Below, piece by piece: positions 9,984 through 21,599 of a stretch of DNA of 64,000 nucleotides (position 1 is its first letter; the number at the start of each line of letters is the position of its first letter). Below the pieces are notes generated by a model. It saw only the letters and a program-made list of their open reading frames with translations. It had not been told where the DNA came from and did not search any database. Origin of the DNA: Haloarcula laminariae. GTDB lineage: Archaea; Halobacteriota; Halobacteria; Halobacteriales; Haloarculaceae. A program made the position numbers and the translations under genes. The stretch spans positions 434,001 to 498,000 of the forward strand of contig NZ_JAMZFY010000001.1 of assembly GCF_025457605.1 (NCBI RefSeq), written 5' to 3'.

Positions 9984-10556
9984 ATGTCTGCCCGTCACCG
10001 AACGTCGTCACCGAGCCGACAGACCGAGGACACCCTCCGCGTCCCGTCGCGCTCACGGCTGCTCCGGTCCGTCGCACGGGGCTGTGTCGGGGGGTTCGCC
10101 GCCACGGTCGCCATGACCGTCTATCGCATCCCGGGGTTCAAGGCCCTGCCACCGACGGCCGAGTTCTGGGCGCGCTACGTCGGCGGCGGCGACACGGAGG
10201 AGTACTTCCTCCCGGGACTCTTCTTGCACCTCCTCTACGGGGTCGTTGGCGGCGCGGTCTACGGGCTGGTCGCGAGTTTCGTCGACGTGTCCGACCCCGT
10301 CGCGCGGGAACGGCTGGGTATCCTGGGCGGGCTCGGGTACGCGCTCGCTCTCTCGGTATTTGGCTCCCGGGTCGTCTTCGTCCGCCTTCTCGGGCGGGAA
10401 CTCCAGCCCGAAGACGCGCTGGTGTTTCACGTCGGCCACGCCGTCTACGGAGCGACGCTGGGGACGTTCGTCGCCACGAGCGAGTCCGCCGGCGACGTCT
10501 ACCGCGAGAGCAGACGGACGCGACCGGACACGGCGACCCAGCGGGCGTCGGAGTAG
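9984..10556 (+). CDS. Conserved haloarchaeal membrane protein
   Basis: 190 residues. The N-terminal 30 are polar, then about four membrane segments follow (around residues 33-50, 78-98, 112-130, 147-165), with conserved-looking polar bits YRIPGFKALPPTAEFW and HVGHAVYGATLG. No catalytic motif is recognised and the function is unknown. An AT-rich patch (CATATATCAATT) lies 10-20 bases before the start. Divergent from the RNB gene. Confidence 0.6.
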   Translation: MSARHRTSSPSRQTEDTLRVPSRSRLLRSVARGCVGGFAATVAMTVYRIPGFKALPPTAEFWARYVGGGDTEEYFLPGLFLHLLYGVVGGAVYGLVASFVDVSDPVARERLGILGGLGYALALSVFGSRVVFVRLLGRELQPEDALVFHVGHAVYGATLGTFVATSESAGDVYRESRRTRPDTATQRASE

Positions 10557-10737: not shown

Positions 10738-10926
10738 TCAACAGCTGCCGCCGGCACCGCAGACGTCGCCGTACTGAACCCCCGTCTCCTCGCTGATGGC
10801 CTCGTTGCACTGCAGCAGTACCGTCTGGAACTCGGCGGGGGACGCGTCGGACTCCATCGCGGCCAGTTCCTCGCCGAGCGCTTCCGCGGCCGCCAGCACG
10901 TCTTCCTCGGAGGCGCTCAACAGCAC
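10738..10926 (-). CDS. Small Cys-tailed protein of the arsenic locus (HcsS-like)
   Basis: 62 residues from a GTG at 10926, overlapping the end of the preceding HcsL-like gene by 10 bases. It is helical and acidic, ending in a Cys-rich tail (VCGAGGSC). I believe NCBI names such partners of haloarchaeal ArsA halo-CC-star proteins, but unlike its neighbour this one ends GGSC rather than Cys-Cys. The terminal cysteines could bind As(III)/Sb(III) or a metal and pass it to ArsA; this is inference from context. Confidence 0.55.
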   Translation of the reverse strand: MLLSASEEDVLAAAEALGEELAAMESDASPAEFQTVLLQCNEAISEETGVQYGDVCGAGGSC

Positions 10927-11282
10927 CCACCTCCCGTCGACTGGGCGAACTCACGGCCGATCTGCTCGCTTATCACGTCGTTCGTCTCCTGGAGGAGTTC
11001 GACCAGCGCTTCCTGTGCCTCGCGGTGGCGCTGAATCGTCTCGTTGTCGTCCATCTCCGACTGGAGCTCCTGGAGTTCGCTCATGAGCGACTGGTCGAAG
11101 TCGCGCTGCATCCGCTGTTGCTTTTCCTGGAACTCCCGGAGCAGCGCCGACGCCTCCGAGTCCTCGTCGAGCGCCTCGCTGGCGTCGACGAACTCCCGAT
11201 AGATCTCCGAGTCGGTCAGCGTCTCCATGAACGTCCGGAGCTGCTCCTCGACGTCTTCCTCGCTGGCCTGGAGTCCGCTCAT
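10917..11282 (-). CDS. hcsL: YlbF-like protein ending in Cys-Cys (halo-CC-star, HcsL-like)
   Basis: 121 residues, almost all helical, resembling the YlbF/YmcA fold (motifs SEIYREFVDASEAL, FQEKQQRMQ, ISEQIGREF). It terminates GGGCC directly before the stop. The ATG overlaps the arsA stop by 4 bases, so it is translationally coupled to arsA. Known: YlbF-family proteins in bacteria act as RNA-processing cofactors, and a haloarchaeal subset with a C-terminal Cys pair accompanies ArsA. Inferred: a thiol-based metalloid carrier or sensor for the ATPase. Confidence 0.65.
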   Translation of the reverse strand: MSGLQASEEDVEEQLRTFMETLTDSEIYREFVDASEALDEDSEASALLREFQEKQQRMQRDFDQSLMSELQELQSEMDDNETIQRHREAQEALVELLQETNDVISEQIGREFAQSTGGGCC

Positions 11283-13201
11283 GAGATAACCACCTCCTCG
11301 TCCCGCTTCAGCTCCGCGAGACCGGTTATCTCCTCGCCGAACGCGCTGAGTTCGTCGAGCCCGACCGGCTCGTCCCGGCGCAGCGGCGCGCACATCATCG
11401 GCGTCTCGAAGCGGTCCTTGATCTCGGTGAGGTACTTCTCCTGCTGGGCTCGGCGATTGGCGAAGAAGGCGTTGTCGCCGTACTCCTCGGGCAGCAGGTA
11501 GTTCGCGACGACGAAGGCCGTCTCGATGCCGACCTGGTCCCTGAGGTCCTCGGCCGCGCGATAGGCCTCCATCATCGGCGTGTATTCGGGGTACATGACG
11601 AACGCGAAGGAACTGCGCTCGGGGTCCTGCATCGTCTCGATGACCTCGTCGTACTGGTCGCCCTTCGCCGGCGCGGCCCCCTTCGTCAGCGACCCGAGGT
11701 CCATGAACCCCTTCCAGTCGGAGGGCAGCTCCAGCAACCTGAGCGTGTGGCCCGTCGGGGCCGTGTCGAAGACGACGACGTCGTAGCCGTCCTCCCCGAA
11801 GTAGCTCACGAACTTCTCCAGGGCGGCCATCTCCTCGGCACACGGGGACTCCAGCTCCTCCTCGACGTTGGCGATGGCGGCCTCGACGTCGATTTGGGTG
11901 TCCTCTTTGTCCTCGTACATCTCCCGGACGTGGCCCAGGACCTGCTCGCGGTACTCTTCGAGGGCCCGCTCCTGGTCGATGCGGGCCGCGTGGAGGTTCT
12001 CTTGGCTCACCGACGTGGGGTCGTGGCCGACCGGTTCGCCGAAGATGTCCTCCAGGTGTGCTGCGGGGTCGGTCGTCACGACGAGCGTCTCGTAGCCCGC
12101 CTCGGCGAGTTTCGTCGCCGAGGTCGCGGCGACGGTGCTCTTGCCGACGCCGCCTTTCCCGGTGAAAAACAGGTATCGGGTGTCGTCGCCGGGCGTCAAC
12201 TGCTCTGTGACCGACTCGGGGTCGGCAAGCGCCTCGACGTCGACCGACTGGTCGGTGTCGACGTCGGTGGCCGAGCCGACCTCGACGGTCGCCTCCTCGC
12301 CGTCGTAGATGACGCCGCCGACGTCCGACAGCAGGTCGAGGCCGGCGATTTCGCCGGGCTGGAGCGGATAGGTCGCCGTCGCGTCGGCGTCGAACTCCGT
12401 TCCGGCCCGCTCGATGACCGCCTGCTCGTCCTCGCGTTTCCCCTCGAAGAAGGGGTCCTCACAGACCGATTCCGGGAGGTAGCCGTTGACGACGAGCAGC
12501 TGCGACTCGATGCCCAGCTCGCCCAGGTCCGACGCGCTGCGTTCGATTTCGTCGAGCGAGGAGTCCTCGGGCTTGCCGACGAAGGCGAAGGTCGTCTGCG
12601 CGTCGTCCTGTAAGGTGTCGATTGCCCGCTCGTACTGGGCCTTCTTGTCCTCCATGGAGGCCGCGGGGCCGATACAGGTCGACCCGCCCTTCTCCAGTTC
12701 GGCGTTCCAGTCCGACGGCAGCTCCATCAGCCGGATGGTGTGGCCGGTCGGGGCGGTGTCGAAGACGACCACGTCGTACTCCGGGCTGTCCATGAAGTCG
12801 ACGAAGTTGTCGAAGGCCGCTATCTCCTCGACGCACGGGCTGTTGAGCTGCTCCTCGACGGTCTCGAGCTGTTCGTCGTCGAGCAGCTCCCGCATCGGCT
12901 CGATGGTCTCCTGGCGGTACTCCTCGGCGGCCTGGTCGGGGTCGATTTCGATGGCCGAGAGGTTGTCGATGTCGGCGATTTCGGTCACCTCGTGGCCGAT
13001 GTCCTGCTCGAAGATGTCCGAGAGGTTCGGCGCGGGGTCGGTCGTCACCAGCAGCGTCTCGTAGTCGTTGTCGGCCAGCCACGTCGCCGTGGCACAGCTG
13101 ACGGTGCTCTTGCCGACGCCGCCCTTCCCGCTGAAGAAGACGAACTCGGTGTCCTCGGAGCTCGGCTCGACTATCTCTCTGGCTCCGGTTTGCGTACTCA
13201 T
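11279..13201 (-). CDS. arsA: ArsA family arsenite-translocating ATPase, tandem-duplicated
   Basis: 640 residues made of two homologous halves. Each has a GKGGVGKST deviant Walker A (residues 25-33 and about 350), a DTAPTGHT motif and a switch region. The full-length two-domain form matches bacterial ArsA that powers ArsB, rather than single-domain Get3. Cys residues occur in the equivalent ESPCAEE/NSPCVEE positions of both halves, where metalloid-site cysteines sit in the family. It lies 3 bp after arsD. No ArsB or Acr3 pump gene is in the window, so its membrane partner must be encoded elsewhere or it has another role. Confidence 0.92.
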   Translation of the reverse strand: MSTQTGAREIVEPSSEDTEFVFFSGKGGVGKSTVSCATATWLADNDYETLLVTTDPAPNLSDIFEQDIGHEVTEIADIDNLSAIEIDPDQAAEEYRQETIEPMRELLDDEQLETVEEQLNSPCVEEIAAFDNFVDFMDSPEYDVVVFDTAPTGHTIRLMELPSDWNAELEKGGSTCIGPAASMEDKKAQYERAIDTLQDDAQTTFAFVGKPEDSSLDEIERSASDLGELGIESQLLVVNGYLPESVCEDPFFEGKREDEQAVIERAGTEFDADATATYPLQPGEIAGLDLLSDVGGVIYDGEEATVEVGSATDVDTDQSVDVEALADPESVTEQLTPGDDTRYLFFTGKGGVGKSTVAATSATKLAEAGYETLVVTTDPAAHLEDIFGEPVGHDPTSVSQENLHAARIDQERALEEYREQVLGHVREMYEDKEDTQIDVEAAIANVEEELESPCAEEMAALEKFVSYFGEDGYDVVVFDTAPTGHTLRLLELPSDWKGFMDLGSLTKGAAPAKGDQYDEVIETMQDPERSSFAFVMYPEYTPMMEAYRAAEDLRDQVGIETAFVVANYLLPEEYGDNAFFANRRAQQEKYLTEIKDRFETPMMCAPLRRDEPVGLDELSAFGEEITGLAELKRDEEVVIS

Positions 13202-13204
13202 GTA

Positions 13205-13534
13205 TTAGGCTTCCTGTGCGGTCGTCCGCGCCTCGCTTAGCTCGCTGGCGAGCTCGTCGTAGCCGAGATACTCCGATTTCGCGACGATGTCGCCGTCGAC
13301 AACGGTGATCGGGAGTACCGACGGGCCGTCCTCCTGGACCATGTCGTAGATCCGCTGGGTGTTCAGGAACTGGTCGATGTTGTGTTGCATGTTCGCTCGC
13401 GTTACCTCCACGTCGAACTCGTCTTCGAGCTGGTCCAGCGCGGCGCTGACCTCGACGAGTTCGTCGTCCGGGTCCGGTCCGCAGACGCCGGTGGAACAAC
13501 ACATCGCTTCTTCGTACAGGGTGAGTTCAGTCAT
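13205..13534 (-). CDS. arsD: ArsD arsenic metallochaperone
   Basis: 109 residues, thioredoxin-like fold. Cys12, Cys13 and Cys18 (CCSTGVC) occupy the same positions as the metalloid-binding triad of E. coli ArsD, which delivers As(III) to ArsA. It leads the arsD-arsA-hcsL-hcsS operon, divergent from arsR-arsC across 407 bp. Confidence 0.92.
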   Translation of the reverse strand: MTELTLYEEAMCCSTGVCGPDPDDELVEVSAALDQLEDEFDVEVTRANMQHNIDQFLNTQRIYDMVQEDGPSVLPITVVDGDIVAKSEYLGYDELASELSEARTTAQEA

Positions 13535-13941
13535 GGTTTCGTAGATCCGTTCAATCGAACGCCCGATACGTCCGGATTACTGCTCCGCGCTTTCGCCACC
13601 GTCCTGCCAATCTCAATTCAGTGTTCGTTCATATGTACTTCAACGCTTCGGTCAGCCGACGAAGCTGTCGGTCGCCCACGACTCGTCGTCGGGACTCACG
13701 CCGTCCGTTACCGGGGGGATAGACGCGACTCCGAGCGCTTGAGCGCTCCTATCAGGATAGTATTGCCCGCTCTCCCATCGATACCGAGCGTTCCCGTCGT
13801 ATCGAGTAACGCCGTCGGACTACAACACGGGATTCAATAACTGGGGATATTTGAGGAAGTGCTAAATCATTGGCCGCTCCACCGCTCGTTCCACTGAATC
13901 CGCTGCGCAACACTTACTTTACCACTCACTCAACTATTCGT
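13535..13941. promoter_or_regulatory. Divergent arsD/arsR control region
   Basis: 407 bp without a convincing gene. A 5-bp inverted repeat, CGTTC-AATC-GAACG, lies at 13548-13561, just upstream of arsD. A weak TATA-like stretch (CTTACTTTACC, about 13912) sits 25 bases before arsR. A self-complementary GAGCGC/GCGCTC cluster lies near 13733-13748. ArsR most likely acts here, but I cannot point to a confirmed operator. Confidence 0.4.
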
Positions 13942-14331
13942 ATGTCATCGACCGAGCGGCTACAGCGGTATCTCTCCGACGAACGAGGCGGCTGTGGGGA
14001 CGAGGAAGTGGCCCAGCGGCTCGCCGAACTGGAAGAACTCGACGCGGCCGCGGGCGGGCCCGACCTTGACGCGGACGTGGGCGTGCTGTCCGCGCTGGCA
14101 AACGAGACGCGGTACAAGATTGTCCGTATCCTGCACGTCGCCGACGGGGAACTCTGTGTCTGTGAGTTCTCGCCGCTGTTGGACGTCAGCGACAGCGCCA
14201 TCAGCCACGCGCTCTCCCAGCTCACCGACGCCGGGTTGTTGACCCGACGAAAGGACGGGAAGTGGCGGAAGTACCGGACGACCGCCCGGGCGAACGCGCT
14301 GCTCGTCGCACTCGACGGCTCCCGACGCTGA
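13942..14331 (+). CDS. arsR: ArsR-family arsenite-responsive repressor
   Basis: 129 residues. The winged helix spans about 45-115, with the metalloid-binding motif ELCVCEF in helix 3 (the classic ArsR motif is ELCVCDL), followed by ISHALSQL in the recognition helix. Starts at the ATG at 13942 with a possible TATA 25-30 bases upstream. As(III) binding to the two cysteines should release DNA. It leads the arsR-arsC transcript (77-bp gap) and is divergent from arsD-arsA. Confidence 0.92.
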   Translation: MSSTERLQRYLSDERGGCGDEEVAQRLAELEELDAAAGGPDLDADVGVLSALANETRYKIVRILHVADGELCVCEFSPLLDVSDSAISHALSQLTDAGLLTRRKDGKWRKYRTTARANALLVALDGSRR

Positions 14332-14408
14332 GCGAGTTATATAGAAATATAGCGGCCAACATAGGCCACATACGAGAACTCATCACTGACACGCCGAATA
14401 GAGCAGCT

Positions 14409-14837
14409 ATGTCTGCCGACTCGAAAACCACGTTCGGATTCGTCTGTGTACAGAACGCCGGCCGGAGCCAGATGTCGACGGCCTTCGCCGAGCGCGAACG
14501 GGAGCGGCGCGGTCTCGAAGACAGCGTCGAGATACTCACCGGCGGCACACGGCCGGCCGACCACGTCCACGATGAGGTAATCACCGTCATGCGGGAACTC
14601 GATATCGACCTCTCGGACCGGACGCCCCGCGAGGTTTCGACCGAGGAACTCGAATCCTGTGACGTGGTCGCCACGATGGGCTGTTCGACCCTGGAACTCG
14701 ACGCGAGCAGCGTCGACGTCCGCGACTGGGCGCTGGACGACCCCGACGGGCAGGACATGGAGCGAGTCCGCGAGATTCGGGACGACATCGCCGAACGCGT
14801 CTCGGCCCTCTTCGACGAGTTCTACCCCGACAGCTGA
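14409..14837 (+). CDS. arsC: Arsenate reductase, LMW-phosphatase fold
   Basis: 142 residues. The phosphatase loop C-x5-R (Cys13-Arg19, CVQNAGR) opens the protein, and the ESCDVVATMGC segment supplies further cysteines of the thioredoxin-coupled relay. The catalytic DP motif is in DWALDDPDG. It reduces As(V) to As(III), which ArsD/ArsA would handle. The start at 14409 was chosen by family length; the frame is open upstream. Confidence 0.88.
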   Translation: MSADSKTTFGFVCVQNAGRSQMSTAFAERERERRGLEDSVEILTGGTRPADHVHDEVITVMRELDIDLSDRTPREVSTEELESCDVVATMGCSTLELDASSVDVRDWALDDPDGQDMERVREIRDDIAERVSALFDEFYPDS

Positions 14838-17222: not shown

Positions 17223-17366
17223 ATGCGTCACCTGGGTCCGACGAGCGAACCGCGGTCATCCTCTCTGCCGGCGGCCCGTCCACGCTCGTCTCCGCGCCCC
17301 GCCCGCGCCTCGGGGCGGCGTGTGAGCCGCGGAGCGCCGAACAACCAGCCAATCCTGTCGAGATAA
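17223..17366 (+). CDS. Possible leader peptide overlapping crtB start
   Basis: A 47-codon frame rich in Arg, Ser and Pro that begins about 30 bases after the TTTAAA box. It fills the whole leader, and its TAA stop shares one base with the crtB ATG (TAATG). The composition (basic) is unlike normal haloarchaeal proteins, so the product may not matter. The arrangement would allow termination-reinitiation control of crtB. It could equally be a chance open frame in GC-rich DNA. Confidence 0.3.
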   Translation: MRHLGPTSEPRSSSLPAARPRSSPRPARASGRRVSRGAPNNQPILSR

Positions 17367-18337
17367 TGCAATCTGACAATATCCGAACCAGCAAGTCGAT
17401 TCAACAGCAGACCGGTCGGACGTTCCATCTCGCGACCCGCCTCCTCCCCGAGCGGATTCGCCACCCGACGTACGTGATGTACGCCTTCTTCCGGGTCGCC
17501 GACGACGTCGTCGACCAGCCCGACGGGCCGGCGCCGACCGTCCAGCACGAGCGCCTGGAGGGAATTCGGGAGACCGCGCTCGGCAACCGCGACCCCGACG
17601 AAATGCCGGATGGCGAGGTGCTCTCGGCGTTTCAGGAGCTCCGAGCGGCCCACGACATCCCGGACGAAGAAGTGAACGTCTTCGTCGACGCGATGGAGAT
17701 GGACATCGACCAGGCCCGCTACGACACCTTCGAGGACCTCCGAGAGTACATGCGCGGCTCCGCCGTCGCCGTGGGGAACATGATGACGATGGTGATGGAC
17801 CCCCCCGAGGCAGAGACCGCGCTCCCCCACGCCCAGGCCCTGGCCGAGGCGTTCCAGCTCTCGAATTTTCTCCGCGACGTCCGCGAGGACATCCGCGACT
17901 ACGGTCGGGTGTACCTCCCCCAGGAGACCCTGGAACGCCACGGCGTCACCGAGGAGCAACTGGCGGCGGCCGAGGTCGACGACGGCTTCCGCGCGGTGAT
18001 GCAGGAGGAGCTGGCCCGGACCGAGGACCTGTACCGGGAGGGCGTCGCCGGCATCCGCTATCTCCCCGACGACTGCCAGTTCGCCGTCCTGCTGTCGGCG
18101 GTGCTGTACGCCGAACACCACCGGCTCATCCGCTCGCGGGGGTACGACGTGCTCACCGAGACGCCGGAGCTGACCCGGCGCCGCCGGCTCTGGCTGCTCG
18201 CGAAGACCTGGTGGCACTGGCGGCGCAACGGCGACCCCGAAGCGACGTTCTACGCCGTCAGCGCCGTCTCGGAGCGCGGCTCCGGGACCACACAGACCGG
18301 CCGGACCAGTCACGGCCAGCCCACGTGGCGGGGCTGA
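17366..18337 (+). CDS. crtB: Phytoene synthase
   Basis: 323 residues of the squalene/phytoene synthase family. Both Asp-rich Mg-binding motifs are present: ADDVVD (about residue 45) and the LRDVREDIRDYGRVYLP block (about 170). It condenses two geranylgeranyl-PP into phytoene at the head of the C40 carotenoid pathway, feeding bacterioruberin and retinal. It is followed after 16 bp by crtY and blh, all plus strand and probably one operon. Confidence 0.92.
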   Translation: MQSDNIRTSKSIQQQTGRTFHLATRLLPERIRHPTYVMYAFFRVADDVVDQPDGPAPTVQHERLEGIRETALGNRDPDEMPDGEVLSAFQELRAAHDIPDEEVNVFVDAMEMDIDQARYDTFEDLREYMRGSAVAVGNMMTMVMDPPEAETALPHAQALAEAFQLSNFLRDVREDIRDYGRVYLPQETLERHGVTEEQLAAAEVDDGFRAVMQEELARTEDLYREGVAGIRYLPDDCQFAVLLSAVLYAEHHRLIRSRGYDVLTETPELTRRRRLWLLAKTWWHWRRNGDPEATFYAVSAVSERGSGTTQTGRTSHGQPTWRG

Positions 18338-18353
18338 TGCCCGCCCGGCGTCG

Positions 18354-19130
18354 ATGACCGCCGGCATCGACTACCTCGTCTTTCACGCCGTGGCGCTCCT
18401 CCCCGTCGTCGCCGCGCTGGCGCTGCTGGCCCGCTACCGCCTCGGGGCCCGGGGCGACGTGCTCGCGGGGACGCTGGTGCTCTCCGGGCTGGCGCTGGTG
18501 TACACGACGCCCTGGGACAGCTATCTCATCACGCGTGGCGTCTGGTGGTACGGCGACGGCGCGGTCCTCGTGCGGTTTGGCGCCGTCCCGCTGGGCGAGT
18601 ATCTGTTCTTCGTCCTCCAGCCGCTGCTGGTCGCGCTGTGGACCGCCCGGTTTCCGGTCGAGACGGCGCGGCCGCTGTCGGTGCCCCTGCCCGAGCGGGC
18701 CCTGGGGCTGGCCGCCGCCGGCGCGGTCGCCGCCGCGGGACTGGCACTCCTCGGTGCGGACAGCGGCCTGTACCTCGGTTCGCTGCTGGTGTGGAGCGCC
18801 CCAATCCTGGGCATCCAGTGGGCATTCGGCTGGCCGTTTCTGGTTACGGAGTGGCGTACCGTCCTGGCCGGGACGCTCGTGCCGACGCTGTATCTCTGGG
18901 TGGTCGACCGGGCCGCCATCGAGGTCGGGCTCTGGACGCTGTCGGAGCGCTACACCACGGGCGTCGCCGTCCCGCTGCTGGGGCTCCCGATAGAGGAAGC
19001 CGTCTTCTTCCTGCTGACCTCGCTGTTCGTCGTCCAGGGGCTCGTGTTGTACGTCTGGCTCGTCGCCAGGGTGCGGGCGGCCGGACACCGCGGACTGAAC
19101 CCCCTCTCGACGCTGTCGGGAGGGCGGTGA
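18354..19130 (+). CDS. crtY: Lycopene beta-cyclase (CrtYcd type)
   Basis: 258 residues with about seven membrane segments and two copies of the lycopene-cyclase-domain pattern: YTTPWDSYL and PLGEYLFF in the first half, LPIEEAVFFLL in the second. This is the fused form of the heterodimeric CrtYc/CrtYd cyclase used by haloarchaea to make beta-carotene. It ends 3 bp before blh, so lycopene is channelled to beta-carotene and then to retinal. Confidence 0.88.
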   Translation: MTAGIDYLVFHAVALLPVVAALALLARYRLGARGDVLAGTLVLSGLALVYTTPWDSYLITRGVWWYGDGAVLVRFGAVPLGEYLFFVLQPLLVALWTARFPVETARPLSVPLPERALGLAAAGAVAAAGLALLGADSGLYLGSLLVWSAPILGIQWAFGWPFLVTEWRTVLAGTLVPTLYLWVVDRAAIEVGLWTLSERYTTGVAVPLLGLPIEEAVFFLLTSLFVVQGLVLYVWLVARVRAAGHRGLNPLSTLSGGR

Positions 19131-19133
19131 CGC

Positions 19134-20153
19134 GTGGCGACCCGCACCGCCCGCGAGACGCTCCGGCCGCTGGTGTTCGCCTCGGGATGGGCCGGCCTCG
19201 CCGTGGCCGTCCTCCCGTCTCTCGCCGGCTTCCGCCTCCCGGTCGTCGTCCAGTACGCGCCGCTGGTCGCCAGCGCCCTCCTGTTGGGGTTGCCCCACGG
19301 CGCCGTCGACCACCTCGCCGTCGCCCGTACTCGCGGTCGGCGACCCGACCGGCGAGCCGTCCTGCGTGTCGTCGCCCTCTACGTCGCCGTCGGTGGCGCC
19401 TACGCCGTCGGCTGGTTCCTCGCGCCCGCGGCCGCCTTCGCCCTGTTCATCCTCGTCACGTGGTTCCACTGGGGGCAGGGTGACCTCTACGCGCTCGTGG
19501 CGCTGGCCGACGCCGACCACCTCCGCTCGCGCGCCCAGCGCGCCGGAACCGTCGCCGTCCGCGGCGGCCTCCCGATGCTCGTTCCCCTGCTCGCCTTTCC
19601 CGAGTGGTACCGGCGGGTCGCGACGACGCTCGTGGGTCTGTTCGCCCCCGACGCCGTCGCCGCGCTCTCGCCGGCCTTCCGCCCGGACGTCCGCCTCGCG
19701 CTGGGCGTCGGCTACGGCGCCGTCGTCCTCGTGACCCTGGGCGTCGGCTACGCCCGCGCCCGGGACCGCCGTCCCTGGCGCCTCGACGCCGCCGAGACGC
19801 TCGGGCTCGCCGCCTACTTCGCCGTCGTCCCGCCGGTGCTCGCCATCGGCGTCTACTTCTGTCTGTGGCACTCGCTGCGCCACATCGCCCGCCTGCTGCT
19901 CGTCGACGCCGAGGCGACGGCGGCGCTCCGGGCGAGCGAACCGACCGCCGCGTTCGCCCGCTTTGCCAGGGACGCCGCGCCGCTCACGCTGGTTTCGCTC
20001 GCCCTGCTCGCCGGCCTCGCCCTAGTCGTCCCGAACCGCCCCGAGACCGTCCCCGAGTGGGTCGGGCTCTATCTGGTCTTTATCGCCGTCGTCACGCTCC
20101 CGCACGTGGTCGTGGTGACGATAATGGATAGGGAGCAAGGCGTCTGGGCGTAG
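19134..20153 (+). CDS. blh: Brp/Blh beta-carotene 15,15'-dioxygenase
   Basis: 339 residues from a GTG at 19134, with about eight membrane segments. The iron-binding His pattern of the family is seen in GLPHGAVDH, TWFHWGQGD, LWHSLRHI and LPHVVV. It cleaves beta-carotene into two retinals for rhodopsins. No opsin gene lies in the window, so the retinal must serve a rhodopsin encoded elsewhere. Starts 3 bp after crtY. Confidence 0.9.
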   Translation: MATRTARETLRPLVFASGWAGLAVAVLPSLAGFRLPVVVQYAPLVASALLLGLPHGAVDHLAVARTRGRRPDRRAVLRVVALYVAVGGAYAVGWFLAPAAAFALFILVTWFHWGQGDLYALVALADADHLRSRAQRAGTVAVRGGLPMLVPLLAFPEWYRRVATTLVGLFAPDAVAALSPAFRPDVRLALGVGYGAVVLVTLGVGYARARDRRPWRLDAAETLGLAAYFAVVPPVLAIGVYFCLWHSLRHIARLLLVDAEATAALRASEPTAAFARFARDAAPLTLVSLALLAGLALVVPNRPETVPEWVGLYLVFIAVVTLPHVVVVTIMDREQGVWA

Positions 20154-21368: not shown

Positions 21369-21599
21369 TGTGTTTCACCACGGGCGTTGCGTGGTTCAAG
21401 CCCCGTCGAGGACTCACATCCCGACCTGCACACGCAGGTGCCCGCTGGTGCCCGTCGTCCAGCGAGTTGTCGACTGTTCCACAGTCGCGGCCTTAAACGG
21501 TTCGAAGCCACGCGACCGTGTGTGTGGTGCCCATACACGCGTTCCTACGCGCTGGGAACCCCCTCGAACGTTATAACGACTGTACCCGTATCGGGGCGT

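Follow-up and report, generated by a model that had tools for sequence, protein, structure and literature searches.

HcsL and HcsS, two Cys-tailed small proteins, are near-obligate companions of the haloarchaeal arsenite ATPase ArsA_halo

Introduction

In Halobacterium NRC-1, the arsADRC region of plasmid pNRC100 has the gene order arsD-arsA-hcsL-hcsS, with arsR-arsC divergent from it. The plasmid record places hcsL and hcsS immediately after arsA, and the published name arsADRC leaves out both genes. Deletion of arsADRC increased the sensitivity to arsenite and antimonite, deletion of arsB was without effect, and a novel arsenite pump has been inferred for this organism in reviews (PMC1447603, PMC3600143). 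Acr3, ArsB, ArsP_1 and CstA were proposed as partner transporters of ArsA by Castillo and Saier (PMC2963123). In the Ric complex of Bacillus, cysteines in the C-terminal tails of RicA (YmcA) and RicF (YlbF) are joint ligands of an Fe-S cluster held by a further protein, RicT, and almost no case is known of adjacent cysteines ligating one cluster (PMC6751060).

The families HcsL (NF041416) and HcsS (NF041415) have already been named by NCBIfam, with the label halo-CC-star, next to ArsA_halo (NF041417). A full-text literature search revealed no paper on the function of HcsL or HcsS, and a search on archaeal YlbF proteins with arsenic gave nothing relevant. Here, an ars locus of Haloarcula laminariae that carries both genes was compared with these systems.

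Results

The stretch of DNA analysed, hereafter the window, comprises 64,000 nucleotides (contig NZ_JAMZFY010000001.1 of assembly GCF_025457605.1, positions 434,001 to 498,000 of the forward strand), and coordinates without a locus or contig prefix refer to it. The locus contains the following features:

arsD, 13205 to 13534, minus strand: metalloid chaperone, 109 aa (NCBIfam NF033727, 113 bits; Pfam PF06953)
arsA, 11279 to 13201, minus strand: two-domain arsenite ATPase, 640 aa (NCBIfam NF041417, ArsA_halo, 1163 bits)
hcsL, 10917 to 11282, minus strand: YlbF-fold protein, 121 aa (NCBIfam NF041416, 161 bits; Pfam Com_YlbF)
hcsS, 10738 to 10926, minus strand: protein of 62 aa, GTG start (NCBIfam NF041415, 92 bits)
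Intergenic region between arsD and arsR, 13535 to 13941, no strand assigned: probable divergent promoter/operator, with conserved blocks and a palindrome
arsR, 13942 to 14332, plus strand: divergent ArsR/SmtB regulator, 129 aa (NF033788, 75 bits)
arsC-like gene, 14409 to 14837, plus strand: low-molecular-weight phosphatase fold of the arsenate reductase type, 142 aa (PF01451, 105 bits)

The order on the minus strand is arsD-arsA-hcsL-hcsS, with spacings of +3, -4 (an ATGA overlap) and -10 bp. The preliminary description of this DNA had linked arsD, arsA, a YlbF-like gene and a gene for 62 residues by overlaps or gaps of up to 3 bp, and had read a Cys-Cys end in the third protein and GGSC in the fourth. 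The coordinates agree with this linkage, and both tails are found directly before TGA. Among 64 loci, 49 share the -4 bp spacing of arsA/hcsL, and 53 of 66 share the -10 bp spacing of hcsL/hcsS, which argues that the four-gene linkage is not accidental. The window proteins score over the cut-offs of all three NCBIfam families and stand in the same order. At pNRC100 an arsM pair follows the operon, which is absent from the window's locus.

Alignment with close relatives revealed conserved blocks at both ends of the arsD/arsR intergenic region, and a repeat search located the short palindrome GTTCATATGTAC at 13627-13638. Judged by these features, the region is probably a shared promoter/operator. 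In the named loci arsR was found in 54 of 65. The arsC gene is exchangeable between loci, and the divergence of ArsC is hardly correlated with that of ArsA (r = 0.12). The window's ArsC-like protein scores 63 bits with TIGR02689, under the cut-off of that family.

ArsA consists of two P-loop halves. Its residues Cys123, Cys176, Cys454, His154 and His485 align with C113, C172, C422, H148 and H453 of E. coli ArsA (1f48), and these metalloid-ligand positions were invariant in 57 of 57 sequences. ArsD aligns with solved ArsD structures and has Cys12 (13499-13501), Cys13 (13496-13498) and Cys18 (13481-13483) in a CC-X4-C motif that is kept across loci. The window proteins thus keep the equivalents of ArsD Cys12/13/18 and ArsA Cys113/172/422 of the E. 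coli R773 arsRDABC operon; compared with R773, the cassette lacks ArsB and has two extra Cys-tailed proteins. The genome has its own single-domain Get3-type ATPase elsewhere (C1:799754), which identifies the window's ArsA as the arsenic-type protein.

HcsL scored 161 bits, above the curated cut-off of 140 bits, and is placed by Pfam in the YlbF family. It ends in GGGCC followed by TGA, Cys120 and Cys121 being encoded at 10920-10925. Tail statistics were taken from loci found by profile only, leaving out the 65 named loci, whose scan pattern contained GGGCC. The preliminary description held that homologues without Cys tails in the operon would speak against its proposal. For HcsL none was observed, the GGGCC terminus being present in all 34 loci. 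The AlphaFold model has a pLDDT of 87 with a disordered CC tail, and its top Foldseek matches were Bacillus RicA/YmcA and RicF. HcsL shares with these proteins the fold and cysteines near a flexible C-terminus; it differs in its vicinal CC and in its operon with ArsA, and a search of 59 haloarchaeal genomes for RicT (PSP1 domain) returned none. A search of IMG/VR returned no HcsL.

A general YlbF paralogue is present in most haloarchaeal genomes, at C1:1521870 in this one, and no ars linkage was seen in the copies examined. All 20 of its sampled sequences ended in CC followed by two further residues. The Cys-Cys tail alone is therefore no proof of a role in arsenic handling, and the shared ending suggests that the Cys pair is probably older than the link to ars genes.

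HcsS of the window scored 92 bits (curated cut-off, 55 bits), carries Cys40, Cys56 and Cys62, and ends in GGSC. Among 37 profile-found HcsS proteins the terminus was CC in 32, SC in 3 (the window's included), CG in 1 and SR in 1. A lone terminal Cys is thus a minority form, and with GGSC in place of Cys-Cys the membership of the window's HcsS rests on profile and gene order; the Cys-Cys end is a feature of the family name and lies outside the NF041415 profile cut-off. A Cys occurs within the last two residues in 36 of 37 sequences, the exception (SR) being a remnant without hcsL. The argument from tail-less homologues touches HcsS only marginally. With a probability of 92.5% (E 5e-7), the HcsS profile matches the last helix of HcsL together with its tail, and on this ground HcsS is probably a shortened relative. 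Its model shows two helices (pLDDT 78) and gave no match in a structure search. Both proteins are predicted from their models to be soluble and helical.

The search for the tail proteins beside arsA in other haloarchaea, as the preliminary description had proposed, covered 145 haloarchaeal genomes, with HcsL counted at 134 bits or more. ArsA_halo was found in 32 genomes; 31 of these contain HcsL, which occurs in none of the other 113. HcsS was found in the same 31 genomes, strong extra copies being limited to two (G060 and G068), where the stray HcsS look like orphans or remnants. One genome (G129) has an ArsA of the ArsA_halo clade with neither HcsL nor HcsS. In the genome of Haloferax volcanii, which served as a control, neither HcsL nor HcsS scored over its cut-off. 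The order arsD-arsA-hcsL-hcsS was observed in the 65 named loci, truncated or contig-edge copies aside, and in about 35 further ones, so that it is near-invariant. HcsL and HcsS are thus near-obligate companions of the ArsA_halo clade: two overlooked genes of the arsADRC-region operon of NRC-1 accompany ArsA almost without exception. Mean divergence was far higher for HcsL (0.40) and HcsS (0.44) than for ArsA (0.16). The divergence of HcsL and that of HcsS are correlated with r = 0.89, equal to the value for ArsD and ArsA (0.89).

Several loci showed further features. Decaying cassettes were seen in L052 9063-10947 (G065) and L055 9287-9520 (G068), where arsA survives as its C-terminal half or as a short piece next to hcsS. 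In L034 (9711-10016), L086, L096, L101, L103-L105 and L112, a gene downstream of hcsS encodes an Rdx/SelW-family protein whose tail is likewise rich in Cys (CSPGCC in L034) and which is a third Cys-tailed neighbour of ArsA. A respiratory complex of the molybdoenzyme type, which may reduce arsenate or tetrathionate, has its NrfD and 4Fe-4S subunits encoded next to ArsA in L053 3528-10644 (G129), where ArsA stands alone, and in L035 1-5015 (Natronorubrum bangense), where ArsA is part of a cassette.

Related cassettes were also found beyond the haloarchaea. A phylum-wide search detected HcsS in four non-haloarchaeal genomes. Two of the loci (L178 and L179) contain an almost gapless operon of arsD, an AhpD-like gene, arsA, hcsL, hcsS and acr3, with arsR immediately upstream in L179. 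The scores in L179 were 1156 bits for ArsA_halo and 453 bits for Acr3, with HcsL (100) and HcsS (54) under their NCBIfam cut-offs; in both loci the tails of HcsL and HcsS contain Cys. The HcsL-HcsS pair is therefore not restricted to haloarchaea, and in these operons it is placed between the ATPase and the pump. The genomes G400 and G453 (loci L180 and L181) have duplicated HcsL-HcsS pairs whose tails read GGC followed by a single residue; within about 20 kb of them no ars gene was found, one side in G453 being shorter owing to a contig end. This indicates that HcsL-HcsS is not linked to ArsA everywhere. A large gene for a CPA2-like antiporter lies close to these tandem pairs (L180 8429-9701, L181 8785-10057), and the HcsL tails in L180 are GGCY or GGCR.

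No pump had been in view in the preliminary description, and for three families this extends to the whole genome, in which no Acr3 (E<=1e-20), ArsB or CstA was detected. The genome has one distant ArsP_1 permease (C1:114236), about 330 kb away, and two generic SBF-family proteins. In five cassette-bearing genomes (G013, G018, G033, G038 and G141) none of Acr3, ArsB, ArsP_1 and CstA was found at the thresholds used. Acr3 above the cut-off was less frequent in genomes with the cassette, 8 of the 32 having it, than in the remaining 113, where it was present in 69 (Fisher p = 5e-4, uncorrected for phylogeny). In several haloarchaea acr3 lies in an operon divergent from the cassette.

The idea that the tail proteins are a substitute for the membrane partner is weakened: acr3 directly follows the cassette in the two non-haloarchaeal operons and is divergent from it at the haloarchaeal loci just mentioned, so HcsL and HcsS do not simply replace a pump, and their models are soluble.

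Other membrane partners were considered. ArsP_1 as a universal partner of ArsA was rejected, as such a permease occurs in 101 of 145 genomes irrespective of the cassette, and neither ArsP_1 nor Acr3 is present in 8 of the cassette genomes. The convergent membrane gene of the window (9984-10556) was likewise discarded, no homologue being present next to other cassettes. Clustering of ORFs from 67 loci, carried out in search of a conserved neighbouring membrane gene, brought up no types other than Acr3 and ArsP_1, and these in a minority of loci. In several Halorubrum loci, among them L123 (4778-5767), the gene for an ArsP_1-type permease is flanked by the cassette arsR and another arsR-like gene, and the permease is a candidate exit route there.

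Discussion

HcsL and HcsS could be accessory subunits of ArsA that pass As(III)/Sb(III) to an exit route through their tail thiols, a reading to which we assign a probability of about 0.5. The ArsR-regulated operon would detoxify As(III)/Sb(III), with the ArsD chaperone delivering the metalloid to the site in ArsA of the Cys113/172/422 type. HcsL and HcsS would dock on ArsA as a pair, HcsL being a helical scaffold of YlbF fold that carries the flexible GGGCC tail, and the tail thiols of both proteins would take or guide the metalloid during ArsA cycling towards the exit route. This route may be Acr3 in some archaea and, in the present genome, perhaps an unrecognised permease. We infer the physical complex, the binding of metalloid by the tails and the direction of transfer; by analogy, the tail cysteines of the Ric proteins offer a precedent for tails that meet at the metal site of a partner.

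Extra metalloid carriers, as the preliminary description had suggested, are made plausible by the near-obligate companionship with ArsA, the invariant Cys pair of HcsL and the intact ligands of ArsA and ArsD; the tail itself, shared with the general YlbF paralogue, is no proof. Against an accessory role, that paralogue's CC ending may point to another function of the tail. Furthermore, HcsS tolerates the loss of one terminal Cys, ArsA occurs alone in G129, and the pairs of G400 and G453 are without ars genes. If the accessory reading is right, HcsL and HcsS would provide a testable entry to the way in which ArsA acts where no pump is recognised, and a YlbF-family protein would be assigned a function in archaea for the first time.

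A bolder reading, in which ArsA would energise an unrecognised transporter or a pump-free route by means of HcsL and HcsS as its dedicated adaptors, is doubtful at present. If true, it would account for the missing arsenite pump of Halobacterium.

A redox or Fe-S role might have been inherited from YlbF/Ric proteins, with the tails serving as ligands of an Fe-S cluster or as a disulfide switch and taking no part in metalloid transfer; such a switch would sense thiol stress or regulate RNA or protein partners. The RicA/YmcA fold of HcsL, the cluster ligation by Ric tails (PMC6751060) and the CC tail common to the general paralogue agree with this. We consider both the role and the switch unlikely, however, since the cluster-holding partner RicT was not found in the haloarchaeal genomes searched for it, adjacent cysteines on one cluster are almost without precedent (PMC6751060), and the linkage to ArsA is close.

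Cytosolic sequestration would dispense with transport: without a recognised pump, ArsD-ArsA would load As(III)/Sb(III) onto HcsL/HcsS for storage. The five cassette genomes without any of the four transporter families and the lower frequency of Acr3 in cassette genomes would fit, but the two thiols of HcsL are a weak sink, acr3 lies beside or inside the operon at some loci, and passive storage requires no ATPase, which makes storage rather improbable.

Finally, a lipid-modified C-terminal CC, resembling Rab-type prenylation, that anchors ArsA at the membrane by the pump is highly improbable: the tail forms the very end of the protein, owes flexibility to its GG and has no ordered structure in the model, and we take XXCC of HcsL and CCXX of the YlbF paralogue both to fit Rab-type motifs, but we know of no archaeal Rab-type prenyltransferase, a literature search gave nothing relevant, and HcsS has a single Cys in some species.

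Elsewhere in the window, the clustered genes at 17366-20153 resemble in sequence those for phytoene synthase, lycopene cyclase and Brp/Blh-like proteins, the route to carotenoids and retinal. An eL15-Euryarchaeota ribosomal protein leader was detected at 21388-21438 (Rfam match, 37.6 bits).
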